NCBI GenBank assembly: GCA_020641055.1
Contig: CP067345.1
Location: 3,465,317-3,529,316 of the forward strand
Length of the DNA: 64,000 nucleotides
Direction of reading: 5' to 3'
Source: Clostridioides sp. ES-S-0010-02
GTDB taxonomy: Bacteria; Bacillota; Clostridia; Peptostreptococcales; Peptostreptococcaceae
A program made the translations under genes and the position numbers. The notes beneath the pieces are model-generated. The model worked only from the letters and a program-made list of their open reading frames with translations, did not search any database and was not told the DNA's origin. Every line of letters begins with the position of its first letter. Position 1 is the first letter of the stretch. Of this stretch, positions 21,306 through 32,213 are shown one piece after another.

Positions 21306-22316
21306 TTAAAAAATCCCCAAACTCACCTTTAACTTATTTATTTCAATCTCAACTATATCTGATATATCTTCAAAAGACATGCCTCTATCATGAAGTTTTC
21401 CTGCAATTTTGATTTTTGCATTTTCTTCTCCTTTTTTAATCAAAGCTCTATTTTCTTTTTCTATTACATTTCTAACGTATCTTTTTGCAAATGGCTCATT
21501 GCCATCGCATAAAACTTTATACTTTTCTTTATCTCCTTTGACAAAACTAAGAGCTCTTTTATCTTGTTTAACAGCCTCTGTGCAAATTTCTTCTGTTTGT
21601 TCTTTCACAAATTTTAGAGCCATTCCATATTGTCTCACTGCTTTCAAGCATATTCCAACAGTCTGTTCCTTTACAAATTCTAAAGCCATACCGTTTTGTC
21701 TTACAGCTCTTAGACATATTGTTTCTGTCTGATTTTTTACAAACTTCAAATCAAGCCCATTTTGTCTTACTGCTTCCATACATATTTCTTCTGTCTGATT
21801 TTCCACCCATTTTAGGTTATAACTACATTGTTTAACTGCTTCCATACATATTTTATCTGTTTGATTTTTTACCCTTGCTAATCCAAATTCACTATTTCTA
21901 ACTGCTTCTATACATATTTCTTCTGTTTGCTCTTTTACAAATGCTAAAGCTGTGCCATTTTTTTCAACAGCTCTTAAACATAATTCTTCTGTCTGATTTT
22001 CTATATATTTTAATGCTGTTCCATCTTGACTAAGTGCTAACATACATATTTCTTCTGTTGGATCTTCAACAAATTCTAACATTCTCCAATCTTGCTTGAC
22101 TGCTTCTATACATATTTTTTCTGTTTGATTATCAACACACTTTATTGCATTACAATTTTGTTTAACAGCCTCCAGACATATCTTTTCTGTTTGATTTTTT
22201 ATGTATATTAAATTTAATCCATTTTGCTTTACTATTTCTAAATACTCATCTTCTGTTTTATTGTCAAAGTCATCATTATCTATTGATTCAAATATATCAT
22301 TTTTATTCTCTTGCAT
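21306..22316 (-). CDS. DUF4116 repeat protein, 11 tandem 22-residue repeats
   Basis: Residues about 25-265 consist of eleven 22-residue repeats with consensus EAVKQNGxALKFVKNQTEEIC, ten of them ending in Ile/Leu-Cys. This is the DUF4116 type. The repeat DNA is diverged, not recently duplicated. The C-terminus (about 285-336: KKGEENAKIKIAGKL, GMSFEDISDIVEIEINKL) resembles the tail of Rpn/PD-(D/E)XK transposase-like proteins, but no nuclease domain is present. The repeats probably form an alpha-helical solenoid for protein contacts. No signal peptide and no partner gene. Function unknown. Confidence 0.75.
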   Translation of the reverse strand: MQENKNDIFESIDNDDFDNKTEDEYLEIVKQNGLNLIYIKNQTEKICLEAVKQNCNAIKCVDNQTEKICIEAVKQDWRMLEFVEDPTEEICMLALSQDGTALKYIENQTEELCLRAVEKNGTALAFVKEQTEEICIEAVRNSEFGLARVKNQTDKICMEAVKQCSYNLKWVENQTEEICMEAVRQNGLDLKFVKNQTETICLRAVRQNGMALEFVKEQTVGICLKAVRQYGMALKFVKEQTEEICTEAVKQDKRALSFVKGDKEKYKVLCDGNEPFAKRYVRNVIEKENRALIKKGEENAKIKIAGKLHDRGMSFEDISDIVEIEINKLKVSLGIF

Positions 22317-23335: not shown

Positions 23336-24712
23336 TTAATTGTTTAATTCAATTTCATACTTTTTTATTTTCTTATACAAAAGACTTTTGTGTATTCCCA
23401 TAACCTCTGCTGCCTTGGAACATTTCCAATTGTACTTCCTTAACACATCAATAATTAAACTCTTCTCATAATTTTCAACCATTTCATGAATTGAGCAATT
23501 ACTATCCACATTACATTGAGCTACTCTGCTTATATTATCCATTTTAGATGGAAGGTCACACATCATAATGACCATATCATCACTTACAGCATAAGCACTT
23601 TTTATTACATTTTGCAGTTCTCTTATATTTCCTGGCCAAATATAGTTAATAAAACAATTTTTAACTTTATCACTTAAAACCTTCAATTCCTTATATTCAA
23701 CATTTAATTTATTTAGTATATAATTTGCTAACAATAAAATATCATCTTGTCTGTCCTTTAATTCCATCATATGAATATTTATTACATTTAACCTATAGTA
23801 TAAATCTTCTCTAAATAATCCCTCTTCAACCATTTTACTTAAATTCTTTCTTGTAGCAGAGATTACTCTTACATCTATTTTTATAGTTTTAAGACCTCCA
23901 ACTGGTTCTATTTCACTTTCCTGAAGAACTCTTAAAAGTTTTGCTTGCATGGTCAAAGGCATGTCACCTATTTCATCTAAGAAGATTGTGCCATTATTTG
24001 CAACTAAAAACTTACCTTTTTTGCCTCCTTTTTTTGCTCCTGTAAAAGCTCCTTCGTCATACCCAAATAGCTCTGATTCTAATAGTTCTTCTGGTATTGC
24101 AGCACAGTTTATACTAACCATAGGCTTGTCTGCTCTACTGCTATTATTGTGAATTGCTCTAGCAAAGACTTCTTTACCTGTACCTGTTTCACCTGTTAAA
24201 AGCACTGAGAAGTTCGTTTTAGAAGCTTTCATACCTGTTTTCTTAAGTTCTATGAAATCTCTATTTTCACCTATGAGCTTGTCAAAACTACATTTATCCT
24301 TGAACTGTTCTTTATAATATTGGAGTTCCATATATTCTGACATTAACTTTTTAGCTACATCAAAGGATTGTAATCTAAATTTAACTTGAGCTACCCCTGC
24401 AACTACTTCTCCATTATCATTCTCCACATAAGACCTACTTACTATTACACTTTTTTCTTTTGTTTTTCCACCTGAGTAATGGTGTATAGCTCCTTCTTCA
24501 CAATATTTATCTCTCATAATATCTAACATTTTTGTATTTGGTATAATACTTTGTATATTGTGTCCTATTATATCGTCTCTTTCTTTCCCTAAGAAGTCAC
24601 AATATTTATCGTTAATATCTATGATTACTCCATCTTTATTTACAACAATAAAACCATCATCAGTCATGGATAATACTCTTGCAAATATATCCTTATACCA
24701 GTGCTCTTTCAT
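23336..24712 (-). CDS. Sigma-54-dependent activator (PAS-AAA+-Fis HTH)
   Basis: Enhancer-binding activator of 458 aa. A PAS domain (about 10-120) probably senses a small molecule. The AAA+ domain (about 145-380) has Walker A GETGTGKE and the sigma-54 contact loop GAFTGA in [14 protein letters not shown]. The Fis-type HTH is at the end ([19 protein letters not shown]). It lies just downstream of, and on the same strand as, the acyl-CoA cluster. A -24/-12 promoter with three palindromic upstream sites precedes that cluster, so it is the likely activator. The PAS ligand may be the substrate or its CoA ester (inference). Confidence 0.92.
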
Positions 24713-24810
24713 TGTTTCATCCCTCCACTATAACCTTCAGCAAAAATAATAAGTCTTACAATACAATATTATAAGACTTACCATTCTATATATTCAATGT
24801 TTTCTAGAAG

Positions 24811-25833
24811 TTACCTATTTAATGATTCTATCATTTCAGGTAGAATTTCATATAAATCCCCTACAATTCCATAGTCACATATACTGAAAATAGGTGCCTT
24901 TGAATCTTTATTTATAGCAACTATATATTTAGAATCACTCATACCTGCTAAATGCTGTATTGCTCCAGATATCCCGCACGCAATGTATAACTCTGGTCTA
25001 ACAGTAGTTCCTGTTTGTCCCACTTGATGAGAATGTTCTATCCACCCTGAATCTACTGCCGCTCTTGAAGCACCAATTTCTGCCCCCAATTTATCAGCTA
25101 ATTCTTTTATTAGTTCAAATCCTTCTGCCCTCTTTAATCCTCTTCCTGCTGATACTATTATTCTAGCATCAGTTAGATTTATAGATTTCTTTTCTTTTGG
25201 AAGAATTTCTACTAATCTAGTTCTAATCATTTTTTCATTAAGTTCTGGAGTAACAACCTCTAAAACTCCAGTCTTTGATTCAGTTCTTACAGCTTTTGCC
25301 ATAACACCTGGTCGAACTGTTGACATCTGTGGTCTATTTTTTGGACAAACAATAGTAGCCATTAAATTTCCACCAAAGGCTGGTCTTGTTTGTAATAACT
25401 TATTATCTGTTGAATCTATTTCAAGTTTTGTACAGTCAGCAGTTAGACCTGTTCCAACTTTACCTGCAATTCTAGGTGCGATATCTCTTCCTATAGAAGT
25501 AGCTCCAACTAGTACAACCTCTGGCTTTTTCTCTTCAATTAAACCTGCAATTGAAATTGCATATCCATCAGTTGTGAAATCTTTAAGAAGAGGGTCGTTG
25601 ATATAATAAGCTTTATCAACACTATAGTGAAGTAACTCCTTTACTTCTTTCTCTACTTCATATCCAGCTATTACAACTGCAAGCTCTTTTCCTAATTGGT
25701 CAGCAAGCTTTCTTCCTTCACCAATAAGTTCTATAGTAACAGGATTTATTTTACCTTCCCTTTGCTCTCCTATTACCCAAACACCATTATAATCATTTAA
25801 ATTTATACCTTGATTAACTTTTGCTCTCATCAT
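24811..25833 (-). CDS. etfA: Electron transfer flavoprotein alpha subunit
   Basis: FAD-binding subunit of an EtfAB dimer that exchanges electrons with the acyl-CoA dehydrogenase encoded beside it. 340 aa. The C-terminal FAD domain shows AGRGLKRAEGFELI, GASRAAVDSGWIEHSHQVGQTG, and PELYIACGISGAIQHLAGM. There is no N-terminal ferredoxin domain, unlike the caffeate-reducing CarE. Gap to etfB is 10 bp. With etfB and the dehydrogenase it could form a bifurcating or a simple electron-transfer complex; the sequence does not decide which. Confidence 0.93.
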   Translation of the reverse strand: MMRAKVNQGINLNDYNGVWVIGEQREGKINPVTIELIGEGRKLADQLGKELAVVIAGYEVEKEVKELLHYSVDKAYYINDPLLKDFTTDGYAISIAGLIEEKKPEVVLVGATSIGRDIAPRIAGKVGTGLTADCTKLEIDSTDNKLLQTRPAFGGNLMATIVCPKNRPQMSTVRPGVMAKAVRTESKTGVLEVVTPELNEKMIRTRLVEILPKEKKSINLTDARIIVSAGRGLKRAEGFELIKELADKLGAEIGASRAAVDSGWIEHSHQVGQTGTTVRPELYIACGISGAIQHLAGMSDSKYIVAINKDSKAPIFSICDYGIVGDLYEILPEMIESLNR

Positions 25834-25843
25834 CTTAACACTC

Positions 25844-26638
25844 CTATACTAGTTTCAAATCGAATAGTATTTCTATTAGTTTCTCAGCTTTTTCCTTTTT
25901 ATTTATACCTTCGATTATTTCATTATGCTTGTCTTTAACTGGTACAAAAGACTTGTAAACATTTGTAGGCGAACCCTTTAATCCAATTTGAGTTGTATCA
26001 ACAGCTAAGTCTTCAAGTGTTAACACAGTAATCTTTGCATCTCCATTATTGTAAGCTTCTAAGATTCCTTTGACACTTGGATATCTTGGATTATTTAACT
26101 CTTTTATAGCAGTTAATAAAACTGGCATCTTTGCTTCTATTAAATAATCTCCTGTCTCTGTATAACGAGTTACTAGTAATTTATCATCTTGAACCTTTAC
26201 TTCTTTTGCATATGTAACCTGTGGGACACCTAAGAATTCTGCAACCTCTGGTCCAACCTGAGCTGTATCTCCATCTATAGCTTGTCTTCCACAGAATATT
26301 ACATCATACTTTCCAACCTTCTCTATAGCAGCAGCAATAATTGTAGATGTAGCCCAAGTGTCTGAACCACCAAAAGCTCTATCTGAAATTAAATATGCTT
26401 CGTCAGCACCCATTGCCAAAGCTTCTTTTAAAGCACTTTTAGCTTGAGGGGGTCCCATGCTTACAACCTTAATCACTGCTCCTAGTTCATCTTTTATTTT
26501 TAAAGCTTCTTCTAAAGCATTTCTATCATCTGGATTGATTATACTTGGTACACCATCTCTTATTAGAGTACCTGTCTCTTTATTTATTTTAACTTCGTTA
26601 GTATCTGGAACTTGCTTTAAACAAACAACTATATTCAT
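25844..26638 (-). CDS. etfB: Electron transfer flavoprotein beta subunit
   Basis: Small Etf subunit of 264 aa, partner of EtfA. It starts MNIVVCLKQVPDT and shows the nucleotide-site segments VVSMGPPQAKSALKEALAMGADEA and CGRQAIDGDTAQVGPEVA (near 125). In bifurcating Etfs this subunit holds a second FAD and binds NADH; the glycine-rich ADEAYLISDRAFGGSDTWAT loop is compatible with that. Order acd-etfB-etfA with gaps of 10 bp each shows one transcript. Confidence 0.93.
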   Translation of the reverse strand: MNIVVCLKQVPDTNEVKINKETGTLIRDGVPSIINPDDRNALEEALKIKDELGAVIKVVSMGPPQAKSALKEALAMGADEAYLISDRAFGGSDTWATSTIIAAAIEKVGKYDVIFCGRQAIDGDTAQVGPEVAEFLGVPQVTYAKEVKVQDDKLLVTRYTETGDYLIEAKMPVLLTAIKELNNPRYPSVKGILEAYNNGDAKITVLTLEDLAVDTTQIGLKGSPTNVYKSFVPVKDKHNEIIEGINKKEKAEKLIEILFDLKLV

Positions 26639-26648
26639 GCTCTTCCTC

Positions 26649-27791
26649 CTATCCTAGTACTGCTCTTGAAATAACAACCTTGTGTATTTCTGAAGTACCT
26701 TCGTAAATTTCTGTTATCTTGGCATCTCTGTACATTCTCTCTAATGGATAATCCTTCATATATCCATATCCTCCATGGATTTGAAGAGCTAGGTTTGTAA
26801 CCTCTCTTGCAGTACGTGACGCATTGTATTTTGCCATAGCAGCTTCTTTAGTGTGTCTTTCCCCTCTAGCTTTCAAGTCTGCAGCATAATATACTAACAA
26901 CTTTGCTGATTCCACCATAGTCGCCATATCTGCTATATACCATTGAATACCTTGCAAAGCTGAAATTGGCTTGCCAAACTGAACTCTTTCTTTAGAATAT
27001 TTGATACTCTCTTCTAAAGCACCTTCCGCAATTCCTACAGCTTGAGCTCCAACTCCAATTCTTGCTCCATCTAGACAAGTCATAGCTATGTTAAAGCCTT
27101 TCCCTTCTTTTCCTAATAAATTAGACTTTGGAACTCTACAATTATCAAATATTAACTCTGCAGTTTCTGAACCATGGATACCCATTTTTTCTTCAATTTT
27201 TCCTATTGAAAAACCTGGCGTACCTTTGTCAACGATGATAGCAGACATGCCCTTTATTCCCTTTGATGGCTCTGTCAATGCAAATATTATTAATGATTCT
27301 GCTTGACCTCCACCAGAAATAAAACACTTAGTCCCATTTAAGACGTATTCATCAGTTGCTTCATCAATAATTGCAGTTGTTGCAGCTCTTGCAGCATCTG
27401 AACCAGCATTAGGCTCAGTTAAAGCAAAGGCACCTACACACCCACCTTCAGCCATCATTGGAAGGTATTTTTTCTTTTGTTCCTCAGTACCAAATTTCAA
27501 AATAGCTTGAGCGTATATTGTGTGTATTGATAATATTGCTGCAGATGCTGCACATTTTTTGGCAACCTCAGTAACAACAATTACCTTTTCTATATCTGCT
27601 CCACCAGAACCGCCATACTCTACAGGTGTTCCAATACCATTAAAGCCTATTTTAGCCATTTTGCTAAAAAGCTCTCTTGGAAAAATACCTGTTCTATCTG
27701 TTTCAGCAGCTATTGGTGCTATTTCATTCTCTGCAAATTCTTTTGCTACTCTTTGAAGCATTAGTTGTGCTTCTGTTAATCTAAAATCCAT
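26649..27791 (-). CDS. Acyl-CoA dehydrogenase
   Basis: FAD enzyme (380 aa) that interconverts acyl-CoA and 2-enoyl-CoA with Etf as partner. Signature motifs: GAFALTEPNAGSDA (near 125), TKCFISGGGQAE, and near the C-terminus QIHGGYGYMKDYPLERMYRDAKITEIYEGTSEI; the Glu in YEGTSE is the usual catalytic base of short-chain enzymes. In a fermenter with EtfAB it probably runs in the reductive direction, as butyryl-CoA or crotonobetainyl-CoA reductases do. It is the fourth gene of the cluster, 18 bp after the CoA-transferase. Substrate unknown. Confidence 0.92.
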   Translation of the reverse strand: MDFRLTEAQLMLQRVAKEFAENEIAPIAAETDRTGIFPRELFSKMAKIGFNGIGTPVEYGGSGGADIEKVIVVTEVAKKCAASAAILSIHTIYAQAILKFGTEEQKKKYLPMMAEGGCVGAFALTEPNAGSDAARAATTAIIDEATDEYVLNGTKCFISGGGQAESLIIFALTEPSKGIKGMSAIIVDKGTPGFSIGKIEEKMGIHGSETAELIFDNCRVPKSNLLGKEGKGFNIAMTCLDGARIGVGAQAVGIAEGALEESIKYSKERVQFGKPISALQGIQWYIADMATMVESAKLLVYYAADLKARGERHTKEAAMAKYNASRTAREVTNLALQIHGGYGYMKDYPLERMYRDAKITEIYEGTSEIHKVVISRAVLG

Positions 27792-27809
27792 AAAATTTCC
27801 TCCTATTCA

Positions 27810-29042
27810 TTAACGTACTTCACATGTTTCTTTATTCATTGCTACAATTCCAGACTCAATTAGAACTTCTATATCAGAATCACTGTATCCAAGCTCTCTC
27901 AATATCTCATCTGAATGTTCTCCTATAAGTGGAGCATCACAAGTCATGTTAACTTCAATGTTCCCAAACTTAACTGGAGTGGATGCAAGCATTGTCTTAT
28001 TTCCATTTTTACTTGTATGTTCATATATATAGTTATTAGCAATAGCTTGTTCATCAGTTACCACATCATTAACATGTTGAATTCTCTCATGGGCTATATC
28101 CGCAGTAGTAAGCTTTTCAACCATCTCATTTTGAGTAAATTTTGCAAATTCACCATCCAAAATATTAATAAGTTCTGTAGCATTTTTCTTACTTTCTACT
28201 GAAGATGCAAATTTCTCTTCTTTTATTAAATCTTCTCTTCCAAATAATCTGCAAAGTGCCTCAAAATATCTTTCATGCTCTAGAATGCTTAAGAATATCC
28301 ACTTTCCATCCTTACAACGATAAGAGTTTATTACTGGAGAAATTGCATTTTTTCTAGTTTTTGGATACTCATCGCTAAACTGTGTAGATGCTAATAAAGA
28401 TGATGCATTCCATATTGCTTGTCCAAATAAAGATGCCATTACTTTTTGTCCTTTTCCAGTCTTAGCTTGTTGGTATAAAGCTGCACATATACCTCCAGAT
28501 AAACTGCAAGAAGTTGTGGCATCTCCAAAGGCTATAGGTGGGTTTATTGGACTTGTATCCTTCTCTGCAATATCAAGCATAGCTCCACTTCTTGCCCAAA
28601 AAGCAACTGTATCAAAACCTGCATTATCCTTAGCAGGTCCGAAATCACCAAACCCATTTATTTGTCCCCAGATAAGATGTGGATGCTTTTTACTTAATGA
28701 TTCATAATCAAGACCTAGTCTTTTTAGCGCTCCTGTTCTATAGCTTGAAACAAATACGTTTGCTTCACTTAAAAGCTTATCCATAATTTCAATTCCAGCC
28801 TCACTCTTAAGATTTATAGACAAGCCTCTTTTATTTGAATTATATGTGCTGTAAAAAGGATTATTATAATCATCTATTGGCATTGTCATTGTTGCCCCTG
28901 TCTTTCTTCCTGGGTCTCCAAAGCTTGGTTCTACCTTAATAACATCAGCACCCCAGTCAGCTAATATTTTAGAAGTACCTGGACCTGCTACAAAATATGT
29001 TAAGTCAATGACCTTAACTCCTTCTAATGGTTTATTTAACAC
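27810..29042 (-). CDS. Class III CoA-transferase (CaiB/BaiF family)
   Basis: Moves CoA between carboxylic acids, activating the substrate of the pathway. Typical family N-terminus LEGVKVIDLTYFVAGPGTSKILADWG, the KVEPSFGDPGR loop, the SNKRGLSINLKS segment, and FGDATTSCSLSGG where the Asp (about residue 174) aligns with the catalytic Asp of formyl-CoA and crotonobetaine transferases. The GTG at 29042 is correctly spaced from AAGGAGG, whereas the TTG at 29048 is too close. Acceptor unknown; a CaiB-like role in CoA recycling fits the CaiABD-FixAB-like neighbours. Confidence 0.9.
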   Translation of the reverse strand: MLNKPLEGVKVIDLTYFVAGPGTSKILADWGADVIKVEPSFGDPGRKTGATMTMPIDDYNNPFYSTYNSNKRGLSINLKSEAGIEIMDKLLSEANVFVSSYRTGALKRLGLDYESLSKKHPHLIWGQINGFGDFGPAKDNAGFDTVAFWARSGAMLDIAEKDTSPINPPIAFGDATTSCSLSGGICAALYQQAKTGKGQKVMASLFGQAIWNASSLLASTQFSDEYPKTRKNAISPVINSYRCKDGKWIFLSILEHERYFEALCRLFGREDLIKEEKFASSVESKKNATELINILDGEFAKFTQNEMVEKLTTADIAHERIQHVNDVVTDEQAIANNYIYEHTSKNGNKTMLASTPVKFGNIEVNMTCDAPLIGEHSDEILRELGYSDSDIEVLIESGIVAMNKETCEVR

Positions 29043-29179
29043 TTTCAATTCCTCCTTATACTGTCAACTTGTTATTTTAAATATGGTATTTATGTTATTA
29101 AAACATAAAATTTATTATACATACTTTGAAAATTGATTCTACAATATCAAAATATAATTTATACTTTTTATCTTTTCTG

Positions 29180-30520
29180 TTATGGTAATCCTGGGAACAT
29201 CGTAAACAGAAGAACTGCTACTACAGTTCCAATAATCGGGGTTAAAACAGTTACCCAGAATATTGGCATATAAGCATCCTTATGTGATTCATTACATAGA
29301 CCATTTGTTACAGTAACGATATATCCATTATGTGGAAGCGAATCTAATGCTGCTGACGAAATTGCCATAGTTCTAGTTAATGCAGCAGCAGAAACACCCT
29401 TAGCTAAAAATACTGGTCCAAGAAGTGGAGCCGCAATTCCAAGTCCACCTGAAGCTGACCCACAGATACCTGCAATAACTGTAGTCCCAACTGCAGCCCC
29501 TGCAATAGGAGGTCCAGGAATATTAGTCATAGCATTAACTATGAAGTCAAAACCAACTGCTGATTTTACAACTGAGCCAAATGCAACTACAGCACAAGTA
29601 TTACATATTGCTACTACTGTAGTTTTACATGCATCACCAACATGTCCAACTATTTTGGTATTATCTTGATATTTATTTAACAATAAATACACTAATAAAG
29701 CTCCAATAAATACTCCTACCTCAATTGGTACTATTGCTTTTCCATTAATTTTCACATTGATTATCAAGATTGATACTATTAATGGAATTAATGCAATTAG
29801 ACCATTAGGACCATTTTCTCTCTTGGAATTAGTTGCTGCTACTTCATCAAATGTATCTGATTCATGTGCTATAAAATGCCCACCATTAGCCTTTTCTTTT
29901 GAAACCATTTTGTATAAAATAATGCTTCCAACTATAAACATTACTGCACATGATATAAATCCATTTACTGCTCCAGCCATAATATCTGTTCCTAATGTTG
30001 AAGCTGGGACAATATTCTGAATCTGAGGTGCCCCTGGTGCAACCATAGCAAAAGTTGAACATCCAAAAGTCAAGGCTGCTGGTATAAATCGTCGTGGCAA
30101 ATCAGCTTCTTTAAAAATTTCTAAAGCTATCGGAAACACAGCAAAACTTACAACAAAAACGCTTACTCCCCCATAGGCTAATATTCCACACGCTATTGGA
30201 ATAGAAAGTAATGCTTTATCCTTCCCAATCCATCTTACAATCATCTTAGCAATAGATTTTGCTCCTCCAGTAATCTCCATTATTTTTCCCATTAAGGTAC
30301 CTGTTAGGAAAATAAAGAAATTTGCCTGAAGAAATCCAACAAATCCTGTCATATAATCCACCTTAAGTGCATCATACACATTTAAATTTCCTGTTATAGC
30401 AACTAATAATGAACATACAATTGCTATTATAAAAATATTTACGCCCTTCATAACCATTACAACTAGAAGGGATAGGGCTATGATAATCCCTACTAAACTT
30501 ATAATTACTCCCGTATTCAT
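29180..30520 (-). CDS. GntP-family carboxylate permease
   Basis: Integral membrane transporter (446 aa) with about twelve hydrophobic segments, of the gluconate permease (GntP) family. Typical stretches are FFIFLTGTLMGKIMEITGGAKSIA, FGCSTFAMVAPGAPQIQN, and GICGSASGGLGIAAPLLGPVFL. Family members import gluconate, hydroxybutyrate or other hydroxy acids with protons. Lying between the crotonase and the CoA-transferase in a sigma-54-driven cluster, it most likely imports the carboxylic acid that is then activated and reduced. Substrate is unknown. Confidence 0.85.
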   Translation of the reverse strand: MNTGVIISLVGIIIALSLLVVMVMKGVNIFIIAIVCSLLVAITGNLNVYDALKVDYMTGFVGFLQANFFIFLTGTLMGKIMEITGGAKSIAKMIVRWIGKDKALLSIPIACGILAYGGVSVFVVSFAVFPIALEIFKEADLPRRFIPAALTFGCSTFAMVAPGAPQIQNIVPASTLGTDIMAGAVNGFISCAVMFIVGSIILYKMVSKEKANGGHFIAHESDTFDEVAATNSKRENGPNGLIALIPLIVSILIINVKINGKAIVPIEVGVFIGALLVYLLLNKYQDNTKIVGHVGDACKTTVVAICNTCAVVAFGSVVKSAVGFDFIVNAMTNIPGPPIAGAAVGTTVIAGICGSASGGLGIAAPLLGPVFLAKGVSAAALTRTMAISSAALDSLPHNGYIVTVTNGLCNESHKDAYMPIFWVTVLTPIIGTVVAVLLFTMFPGLP

Positions 30521-30620
30521 AAATTAACTCCTTTTAAAATTAAACTATAAAACTATATGTATTTTTTCACGAAATTTAGATTTTAAATATGTTCTATATT
30601 TGTTTCAATAGTTATAATAG

Positions 30621-31415
30621 CTACTTATTTTCAAAAATCGGTTTTCTCTTTTCTATAAAGGCATTCATTCCTTCTTGCTTATCTCTTGTAGCAAAAGTTA
30701 AACCTGCAATATCTTTCTCTAATTCAAGAGCATTTTTTAAATCCATATCTATCCCCTTATTAATAACAACTTTTGCATATCTTATTGCTATTGGTGCTTT
30801 TTCAACTATTTGGTTCATCATATTCATCGACTCTTGTAAAAGCAAATCACTTGGAACCACTTTATTAATAAGACCAATAGATTTAGCTTCTTCTGCATCT
30901 ACTTGCCTTCCTGTAAAAATTAATTCTTTGGCTATCCCAGTTCCAACAAGTCTTGATAATCTTTGAGTTCCACCAAAACATGGAATGACTCCTAAATTAA
31001 CTTCAGGTTGCCCAAATATAGCCTTTTCTGATGCAATTCTAATGTCACAGCTCATAGCAAGTTCACATCCACCACCTAATGCATATCCATTAACTGCTGC
31101 TATTACTGTTTTCTCAAGAGCTTCAATTTTATCGAAAATCCCTTGGGCATAACCTGCATATTTTCTGCCTTCTTCACTTTTATAGTTTTGCATCTGACGT
31201 ATGTCAGCTCCAGCTACAAAAACTTTGCCTTCTCCAGTAATAATAACTCCTAATATTTCATCCTTTTCTGATACTACATCAATAACTTGAGATAATTCTC
31301 TAAGAGTGTCATTGTTAAGAGCATTTAAAGCTTTAGGTCTATTTATAGTAATAACACAGACTTTATCCTTAACTTCCACCTTAAGATTTTTCAAATTGTC
31401 CATTACAAATCCCAT
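30621..31415 (-). CDS. Enoyl-CoA hydratase/isomerase (crotonase family)
   Basis: Adds or removes water at the double bond of an enoyl-CoA. 264 aa. The oxyanion-hole segments are VAGADIRQM (near 65) and NGYALGGGCELAMSCDIRIAS (near 105); GQPEVNLGVIPCFGGTQRLSRLVG carries both catalytic Glu positions in the hydratase pattern, so it is an active hydratase. First gene of the cluster, directly behind the sigma-54 promoter. Of three nearby ATGs, the one at 31415 is best spaced from GGGGGG; a later start at MDNLKNL is also possible. Confidence 0.9.
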   Translation of the reverse strand: MGFVMDNLKNLKVEVKDKVCVITINRPKALNALNNDTLRELSQVIDVVSEKDEILGVIITGEGKVFVAGADIRQMQNYKSEEGRKYAGYAQGIFDKIEALEKTVIAAVNGYALGGGCELAMSCDIRIASEKAIFGQPEVNLGVIPCFGGTQRLSRLVGTGIAKELIFTGRQVDAEEAKSIGLINKVVPSDLLLQESMNMMNQIVEKAPIAIRYAKVVINKGIDMDLKNALELEKDIAGLTFATRDKQEGMNAFIEKRKPIFENK

Positions 31416-31472
31416 CATATTCCCCCCATTATTTATTGTTATTTTTTCTACACTTTCTTGTTAATATATAGT

Positions 31473-31488
31473 AGCAAGTTCTACGCCA
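31473..31488 (-). promoter_or_regulatory. Sigma-54 (-24/-12) promoter of the acyl-CoA cluster
   Basis: The minus strand reads TGGCGTAGAACTTGCT, matching TGGCAC-N5-TTGCW with the invariant GG and GC at the right spacing. It lies about 60 bp before the crotonase start codon. Together with the nearby sigma-54 activator gene and upstream palindromes, it is convincing. Confidence 0.88.
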
Positions 31489-31657
31489 ACTTATATTTAA
31501 TTTCTCTATTTTTGTTAAAAAACTGTTTTTTTTGATAAAATAAACAAAATATACATAAATTTCACTGAATTTTTAATAGTTTTTAACTTTAGAATTGATT
31601 AGATTGTAATTCACGAAAGAATTTTTATCCAACAAAACCCATAAAACAATATTTTTG

Positions 31658-31724
31658 TCTCATTTTCGAGAAAATACTTAAAAAACACAGTCTCATTTTT
31701 GAGAATGCGGTCTCACTTTTGATA
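31658..31724 (-). promoter_or_regulatory. Three upstream activator sites (probable enhancer)
   Basis: TCTCATTTTCGAGA (31658-31671), TCTCATTTTTGAGA (31691-31704) and TCTCACTTTTGATA (31711-31724) share one palindromic pattern, TCTCA-N4/5-GAGA, the third being degenerate. They begin about 170 bp upstream of the -24/-12 element, the normal distance for sigma-54 enhancers. The intervals of 33 and 20 bp suggest binding of several activator dimers. Confidence 0.72.
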
Positions 31725-32020: not shown

Positions 32021-32213
32021 AGATAACTCCATTTTCTTTTAAATAATTTATTTTACCACTATCAAAGCCAAGCCAACTTCTATAAATCTCCTCATTATTT
32101 TCTCCTAAAGATGGCGCTGGTACATTAATTTGAGCTTTTGTTGTCATTAACTTAACTGGATTTCCATTGACTCTCATGTCTCCTATAATAGGATGTTTAA
32201 TATCTACAATATT
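32021..32213 (-). pseudogene. 3' remnant of a class III CoA-transferase gene
   Basis: A 64-codon open stretch without start codon, bounded upstream by a stop. It reads as the C-terminus of a CaiB/BaiF transferase: VDIKHPIIGDMRVNGNPVKL, then APSLGENNEEIYRSWLGF, ending LKENGVI. The GENNEEIY box is the family's typical end. The upstream 85 percent of the gene is gone. The intact relative at 27810-29042 is too different at its C-terminus to be the direct source. Confidence 0.8.

Follow-up and report, generated by a model that had tools for sequence, protein, structure and literature searches.

The 64,000 nt stretch analyzed here (the window; bases 3,465,317–3,529,316 of the 4.26 Mb single-contig genome of Clostridioides sp. 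ES-S-0010-02) contains an operon of six genes, encoding a crotonase, a GntP-family permease, a class III CoA-transferase, an acyl-CoA dehydrogenase (ACD), EtfB and EtfA, next to the gene for a sigma-54 activator that is called YctR or CD0806 in print. Sequence comparisons suggest that this operon most likely serves as an electron sink in which 3-hydroxypropionate, an acid of the gut with three carbons, is imported and converted reductively to propionate. We hold this specific assignment with moderate confidence, and with distinctly more confidence the wider view that the substrate is a three-carbon acid. A first-pass annotation had proposed a dedicated electron sink for the uptake, CoA activation and reduction of a hydroxy or enoyl acid, governed by a sigma-54 circuit. 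This proposal was supported overall; the interpretation as a whole was supported in part, as the suggested kinship with carnitine CaiABD did not hold. The operon had already been in print (as the YctR regulon and as CD0800–CD0806), and the substrate, left open at that stage, is most likely a three-carbon acid. The circuit is already known, and what is new is the evidence on the substrate and the wider distribution. The genes are:

30621–31418, minus strand: crt, enoyl-CoA hydratase/3-hydroxyacyl-CoA dehydratase (crotonase); Pfam ECH_1, 248 bits
29180–30520, minus strand: GntP-family permease; Pfam GntP_permease, 41 bits (cut-off 22.5)
27810–29048, minus strand: class III (CaiB/Frc-type) CoA-transferase; Pfam CoA_transf_3, 315 bits
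26649–27791, minus strand: ACD of the acryloyl-CoA reductase type (AcrC); NF042972, 696 bits (cut-off 640)
25844–26638, minus strand: EtfB; the nearest solved chains are five Etfs of complexes presumed to bifurcate
24811–25833, minus strand: EtfA; ETF domains only, without a ferredoxin domain
23336–24712, minus strand: PAS-AAA+-Fis sigma-54 activator (YctR/CD0806 in print), from the domain search

The acyl-CoA dehydrogenase and its partner proteins

The window ACD is the only one of the three ACDs of its genome that exceeds the cut-off of the acryloyl-CoA reductase model NF042972 (695.6 bits). The remaining two, at 551.1 and 481.3 bits, are encoded in a bcd-etfBA-crt-hbd-thl cluster (locus L255) and in the had cluster (L049). 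The cut-off was exceeded in five of 391 class-wide genomes, our own included, with a next best score of 596 bits. Scans of two orders gave ACDs above it in 10 of 225 genomes (order of genome G286) and 33 of 393 genomes (order of the window). These two scans also yielded six near-miss ACDs at 624–631 bits, so that the score gap is not empty. In a tree of 75 rows, all ACDs of the AcrC type group in a single clade of 47 rows (99/95), and 26 rows of the Bcd, Had and 3HB types are separate from it (96/89). The ACDs L175 and L231, from the beta-alanine-type clusters described below, nest within a fork of operon-type ACDs (6 rows, 99/98), and the ACD of L080, a Crt-GntP-CoA-transferase locus, falls among the beta-alanine-type rows.

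The clade carries a residue signature. A one-residue deletion after position 90 or 91 of the window protein is present in all 47 clade rows, and in none of the 18 Bcd and 7 Had rows (L078, L091 and L148, all without the deletion, were excluded from these counts); it is also present in all six near-miss ACDs. Position 89 is Ile in 46 of the 47 clade rows and Ala in 17 of the 18 Bcd rows, and position 243 is Ala in 46 of the 47 clade rows and Gly in all 18 Bcd and all 7 Had rows. Presumably, these two positions and the deletion adjoin the acyl chain, as in acyl-CoA dehydrogenase structures, in which case the changes would shorten the pocket. The loci from Megasphaera (L078) and Pelotomaculum (L091) were considered as the same type because of their similar gene content and were rejected, as both ACDs branch elsewhere in the tree and have no such deletion.

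The had cluster of the same genome (L049:1481–11051) is of the hadAIBC type of reductive Stickland clusters, with HadB and HadC above their cut-offs and a PrdR-like activator of its own. This hadAIBC-acdB-etfBA cluster parallels the window operon in its class III CoA-transferase, ACD, EtfBA and dedicated activator, whereas it contains a 2-hydroxyacyl-CoA dehydratase where the window has the crotonase and the permease, and its ACD belongs to another clade.

EtfB scores 208–291 bits with five solved Etf chains from complexes that we take to be bifurcating, versus 87–97 bits with four others. EtfA is nearest to CarE but lacks the N-terminal domain of the latter, the alignment beginning at CarE residue 64; the earlier observation that it has no ferredoxin fusion was thereby confirmed. 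Judged by these similarities, coupling of EtfAB to ferredoxin is likely. For the Clostridium propionicum enzyme, a C. difficile model paper states that it can act without bifurcation (PMC5377389).

All six operon genes and the activator gene were recovered in the ORF check as open frames on the minus strand, in the expected order. The order and the families given in the first-pass annotation were correct, although its description of the genes as running without interruption was generous, with gaps of 100 bp between crt and gntP and 131 bp between gntP and the CoA-transferase gene. With more specific family models, the scores stay below the cut-offs: the crotonase reaches 352 bits with the NCBIfam short-chain-enoyl-CoA hydratase model (cut-off 394) and the permease 36 bits with the gntP model TIGR00791 (cut-off 293). 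The CoA-transferase gene has an alternative GTG start at 29042 preceded by AGGAGG, and D176 in the GDAT motif of its product, which we take to be the catalytic Asp, is invariant across an alignment of three sequences. None of the NCBIfam models reached its cut-off with this protein, the best being formyl-CoA transferase (217 of 442 bits), so that its substrate is not readable from the families. In the activator, Pfam domains for PAS, sigma-54 interaction and a Fis-type helix-turn-helix were identified together with a GAFTGA loop, as expected for the adjacent PAS-type sigma-54 activator that had been described. PrdR was tried as an identity for this protein and ruled out (NF041552, 417 bits versus a cut-off of 795).

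Genomic contexts and distribution of the operon

Outside the genus, 39 ACDs exceed the NF042972 cut-off. Two of them (G100 and G126) represent the same operon, and the contexts of the other 37 were typed by BLAST against reference proteins, of which Hbd, Thl, MaoC and Had had their names confirmed by models. As controls, we used 18 lower-scoring ACDs (17 from the class-wide scan and our own L255). Hbd or thiolase was found in none of the 37 contexts above the cut-off versus 14 of the 18 control contexts (Fisher 7e-10, shared descent uncorrected), and in none of the six near-miss contexts. In the window operon, too, thiolase and 3-hydroxybutyryl-CoA dehydrogenase were not found, while both are present in L255 of the same genome.

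The 37 contexts fall mainly into two types. Nineteen contain ammonia-lyase-like proteins and a CoA-transferase, and seven of these additionally PreA/PreT (dihydropyrimidine dehydrogenase) or dihydropyrimidinase. Reductive pyrimidine and beta-alanine breakdown passes through acryloyl-CoA. From their context, the 19 clusters appear to serve this breakdown, a route that needs acryloyl-CoA reduction. Another 11 contexts have the Crt-GntP-CoA-transferase-ACD layout, and eight of them have a FadX-like CoA-transferase of class I (one of which was scanned by models) where the window has its class III enzyme. The six near-miss contexts comprise three of the beta-alanine type and three of the GntP type with a class I CoA-transferase. 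Clusters with PreA/PreT or dihydropyrimidinase, an ammonia-lyase-like protein, a CoA-transferase, an AcrC-type ACD and EtfBA (L175, L176, L178, L231, L233, L235 and L240) are apparent uracil/beta-alanine-to-propionate routes, some of them in the window's own family. The operon with a class I FadX-like enzyme instead of the class III CoA-transferase occurs at L223, L225, L226, L245 and L247–L250; at L247:13454–16343, genes for a hydantoinase/carbamoylase-family amidase and a dihydropyrimidinase lie directly downstream of the Crt-GntP-class I CoA-transferase-ACD-EtfBA operon.

A link to 3-hydroxypropionate itself comes from relatives near inositol genes. In Lachnospiraceae CE91-St61 (L063), a Crt-CoA-transferase-ACD-EtfBA module without GntP follows IolO-like, transaldolase-like and IolN genes (IolN 294 bits, above the cut-off of 245) and precedes a gene with 2-hydroxy-3-oxopropionate reductase as its best model (240 of 341 bits) and then sugar ABC transporter genes. 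Dorea D27 (L064), also of the Lachnospiraceae, has the same layout, as judged by gene lengths, and an IolN above the cut-off. In Mitsuokella, a gene annotated as 2-hydroxy-3-oxopropionate reductase has been assigned to the formation of 3-hydroxypropionate, described as antimicrobial, from inositol (PMC7618129). The same study assigned the operon AR1Y2_1112–1117 of Anaerostipes rhamnosivorans, which was up to 19-fold up in co-culture, to the conversion of 3-hydroxypropionate to propionate. By its description, this operon has a permease, CoA-transferase, dehydratase, ACD and Etf, as does the window operon. Its CoA-transferase clusters with propionate CoA-transferases (PMC8355322). In our reading, the module would use a three-carbon hydroxy acid that is either taken up via GntP or supplied by a pathway inside the cell.

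All eight Clostridioides genomes examined, our own included, have the complete operon, and the CoA-transferases of the seven others are 98–99% identical to that of the window. One scan gave 60 loci, 43 of which have a CoA-transferase of at least 50% identity; among these 43, crotonase and GntP genes lie nearby on the same strand in 26 and all six genes are present in 13, several of the others being cut by contig ends. The relatives include Peptoniphilus, Anaerovorax, Dethiosulfatibacter, [Eubacterium] yurii and metagenome-assembled genomes (MAGs) of Oscillospiraceae. With relatives across many Clostridia, the published distribution is widened. Two MAGs of Fusobacteriaceae (L057 and L061) showed no crotonase gene within reach of the locus, and searches of viral contigs and plasmids gave no relative of the operon, only CoA-transferases of less than 60% identity. 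A gene between crt and gntP in L056 was considered as a clue to the pathway and dropped because it encodes a transposase. The operon of Clostridium cadaveris (L055/L251) is 85–95% identical to that of the window, versus 55% for YebC, which points to horizontal transfer; its etfA consists of two slightly overlapping pieces.

Promoter, activator sites and published accounts

Upstream of the called start of crt at 31418, four regulatory elements were located:

31473–31489, minus strand: -24/-12 sigma-54 promoter of crt, TTGGCGTAGAACTTGCT; the only exact TTGGCN7TTGCW match in 64 kb
31657–31671, minus strand: activator-site repeat 1, presumed YctR site, TMTCRAAARTGAGAC
31690–31704, minus strand: activator-site repeat 2, presumed YctR site, TMTCRAAARTGAGAC
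31710–31724, minus strand: activator-site repeat 3, presumed YctR site, TMTCRAAARTGAGAC

For the promoter pattern, 0.20 matches are expected in 64 kb and at least one match occurred in 19 of 100 shuffles, so that the match alone is modest evidence. In a survey that covered two spacings on one strand, 28 of 33 regions had the -24/-12 motif at crt, 7 of 8 within the genus and 21 of 25 outside it (C. cadaveris being counted twice, as L055 and L251). The motifs lie at −242 to +12 relative to the called start, two of them 11–12 bases inside the called ORF; in this survey, L036, L063, L075, L079 and L111 had none. In C. difficile strain 630, the operon CD0800/crt1-CD0801-catB-bcd-etfBA2 is accompanied by the enhancer-binding protein (EBP) CD0806/YctR, and 5'-end RNA-seq placed a transcription start at the crt1 promoter TTGGCATAGTACTTGCTAT (Soutourina et al., 2020, PMC7438776). 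The -24/-12 promoter noticed in the first pass was thus borne out by the exact match, by its recurrence at crt and by the mapped start. The promoter of the window is not identical to the published strain 630 promoter, and the relative L038 matches the latter over the 15 bases compared.

Three palindromes had been reported upstream of the promoter. The three copies are there, but they turned out to be direct repeats of an imperfect dyad, 168–235 bp upstream of the promoter. For TMTCRAAARTGAGAC, 0.10 occurrences are expected in the window and three were reached in 0 of 100 shuffles, a figure that is optimistic because the pattern was derived from its own copies. Genome-wide, with at most one mismatch, there are four sites, three of them the exact copies of the window, and a reversed control pattern has five; therefore, the clustering and not the number of the sites stands out. 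Visual comparison shows all three copies conserved in the six relatives of the genus whose upstream sequences were compared.

A regulon of the composition crt-gntT-caiB-bcd-etfAB under YctR, with a distinct activator-site motif of its own, was predicted earlier and listed with butyrate/butanol synthesis as function and Clostridioides as distribution (Nie et al., 2019, PMC6615313). The window shares the gene order and the adjacent EBP, in all eight genomes of the genus, and its sites lie within the 100–250 bp upstream given for the published activator sites, a comparison that concerns positions and not the motifs. In contrast to that listing, we find the system in many Clostridia and argue for a three-carbon substrate. 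The XcgR and CrbR regulons of the same study also combine, by their descriptions, gntT with bcd-etfAB or with crt-hbd-thl under sigma-54, but they have other CoA-transferase names, and CrbR includes hbd and thl. CD0800–CD0806 of strain 630 is the same operon as that of the window, and the passages that treat it name no substrate (PMC7438776). A 2025 study of rpoN covers the had and proline genes (PMC12069270), and its main text contains none of the terms crotonase, etfA, crt, gluconate and 'CoA transferase'. Among the papers listed in one library on the species together with 3-hydroxypropionate or acryloyl-CoA, or on YctR, none was seen to assign the operon to 3-hydroxypropionate. A review of C. 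difficile invokes an acryloyl-CoA dehydrogenase for the route from pyruvate to propionate, in a passage from which the gene meant is not apparent (PMC6384274), so that the enzyme type is not wholly unforeseen. In C. difficile R20291, crt1 (CDR20291_0731) appears in a differential-expression table of an antibiotic/community study with values of −4.20 and −2.81, under columns whose meaning the excerpt does not give (PMC10174544).

Proposed pathway, competing substrates and neighboring genes

From the gene content, motifs and conservation of the operon and from the clade and signature of its ACD, all observed in the sequence, we infer the following pathway, including its substrate, every reaction and its direction, the ligand of YctR and bifurcation. 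The GntP-type permease would take up 3-hydroxypropionate, and the class III CoA-transferase would put CoA on it, with propionyl-CoA or another acyl-CoA as donor. The crotonase would dehydrate 3-hydroxypropionyl-CoA to acryloyl-CoA, which the AcrC-type ACD and the bifurcation-type EtfAB would reduce to propionyl-CoA at the expense of NADH, probably together with ferredoxin reduction, and the CoA-transferase would then free propionate. The PAS domain of YctR may sense the acid or its CoA ester and thereby trigger sigma-54 transcription from the crt promoter. The presence of an importer and a crotonase, together with the absence of a 2-hydroxyacyl-CoA dehydratase, points to a 3-hydroxy acid.

Several observations weigh against this assignment. 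The published label is butyrate/butanol synthesis (PMC6615313). In addition, the crt1 operon was not regulated by SigL in TY medium and was scored NR in qRT-PCR (PMC7438776). A lack of change in a sigma-54 mutant had been named in the first pass as a result that would refute its sigma-54-driven cluster; obtained in TY, it speaks against that proposal and our assignment but is no refutation, as the inducer was probably absent from TY, which the authors propose for most such genes. Compared with the AcrC-EtfAB system of Clostridium propionicum, the window ACD exceeds the family cut-off, but EtfB (308 of 475 bits, NF042971) and EtfA (410 of 600 bits, NF042970) remain below those of AcrB and AcrA, and the operon has no lactoyl-CoA dehydratase. 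Three GntP-type near-miss ACDs have Val89 and Gly243, so that the deletion is the one feature of the signature common to all. Against the 3-aminobutyryl-CoA ammonia lyase model (cut-off 160 bits), the lyase-like proteins that were scanned, three in number, reach 62–66 bits, and the beta-alanine reading is otherwise one of context. Five of the 37 contexts have a MaoC-like dehydratase without GntP or beta-alanine-type genes, and two are partial (L232, with dihydropyrimidinase and BrnQ, and L243, which is cut). Five of the 37 and two of the 18 control contexts end 5 kb or less from the ACD, and none of the context counts is corrected for shared descent. The class I CoA-transferase of 8 of the 11 GntP-type relatives is 50–53% identical to one from the C4-type cluster L137, and clusters of the C4 type that have a PrdR-like activator are among the distant GntP relatives (31–39% identity). 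Finally, the window has a class III CoA-transferase, whereas the Anaerostipes operon has one of the Pct type, which we take to be class I like the propionate CoA-transferases with which it groups; the same 8 of 11 relatives agree with Anaerostipes in this respect.

The main rival is a four-carbon sink, in which 3-hydroxybutyrate or crotonate would be imported, activated and reduced to butyrate. We regard it as unlikely, although the butyrate label, the Bcd residue Gly243 in the three near-miss ACDs and the distant GntP relatives beside a class I CoA-transferase, Hbd, thiolase, MaoC and a Bcd-like ACD would all fit. In both clusters with GntP and Hbd that were examined (L179, the place of L137, and L268), the ACD scores below the cut-off and lacks the deletion, Hbd and thiolase are missing from the contexts above the cut-off and the near-miss contexts alike, and the genome has a separate C4 cluster in L255. 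With a still smaller probability, the operon could be a three-carbon reductase module for acrylate itself or for a pyruvate/lactate-to-propionate route. Models and reviews of C. difficile assume an acryloyl-CoA reductase (PMC5377389, PMC6384274), and the window ACD is the only AcrC-type one of the genome; yet the operon lacks a 2-hydroxyacyl-CoA dehydratase, and for lactate both the importer and the crotonase, for acrylate the crotonase, would be superfluous.

Reduction of the branched 3-hydroxyisobutyrate to isobutyrate via methacrylyl-CoA seems very improbable. The L063 reductase has a second match, to the model of 3-hydroxyisobutyrate dehydrogenase (199 of 292 bits), but it scores higher with the 2-hydroxy-3-oxopropionate reductase model; the pyrimidine clusters could handle thymine-derived 3-aminoisobutyrate too, whereas the inositol context would suggest straight three-carbon units. 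We give hardly any credence to carnitine/betaine or caffeate-like aryl-enoate reduction. The cai and car systems likewise combine CoA activation with Etf-linked enoyl-CoA reduction, but the window falls short of their models and domain layout. The kinship with CaiABD that had been suggested did not hold (CaiA 200 of 540 bits, CaiB 122 of 413), the window ACD is closer to chain 5ol2_C, which we take to be C. difficile Bcd (421 bits), than to CarC (341 bits), EtfA lacks the ferredoxin domain, and a GntP permease stands where a betaine carrier would be expected.

The operon is ordinary in kind but probably mislabelled, as a four-carbon instead of a three-carbon sink, and its dependence on sigma-54 probably went unseen in TY for want of the inducer. 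A more tentative, somewhat doubtful extension is that the C. difficile group and many gut anaerobes inducibly take up 3-hydroxypropionate, an antimicrobial that commensals release from phytate and inositol, as an electron acceptor, turning a compound presumed to restrain competitors into a sink for them, and that the ACD deletion marks C3-type enoyl-CoA reductases everywhere, in uptake operons and pyrimidine/beta-alanine clusters alike. If 3-hydroxypropionate is indeed the substrate, dietary phytate and inositol would be linked to the C. difficile group by cross-feeding, the gene name bcd would have to be corrected for the window ACD, and the signature would help to separate acryloyl-CoA from butyryl-CoA reductases in annotation. 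With 3-hydroxypropionate as a specific candidate inducer, the regulator, permease and enzymes become directly testable.

Between yebC and crt, a block of genes for a CoA-transferase, a CitMHS transporter, an HMG-CoA-lyase-like protein and a LacI regulator is intact in four of the eight Clostridioides genomes. We weighed whether this block belongs to the pathway and decided against it, as it has its own regulator, is intact in only these four genomes and is represented in the window by a remnant only. At 32022–32210 (minus strand), the window encodes a 63-amino-acid remnant that is 82.5% identical to the C-terminus of another class III CoA-transferase. On the other side of the operon, at 21306–22316 (minus strand), lies the gene for a 336-amino-acid protein with seven DUF4116 repeats, which is also found near the operon in the seven other genomes of the genus.

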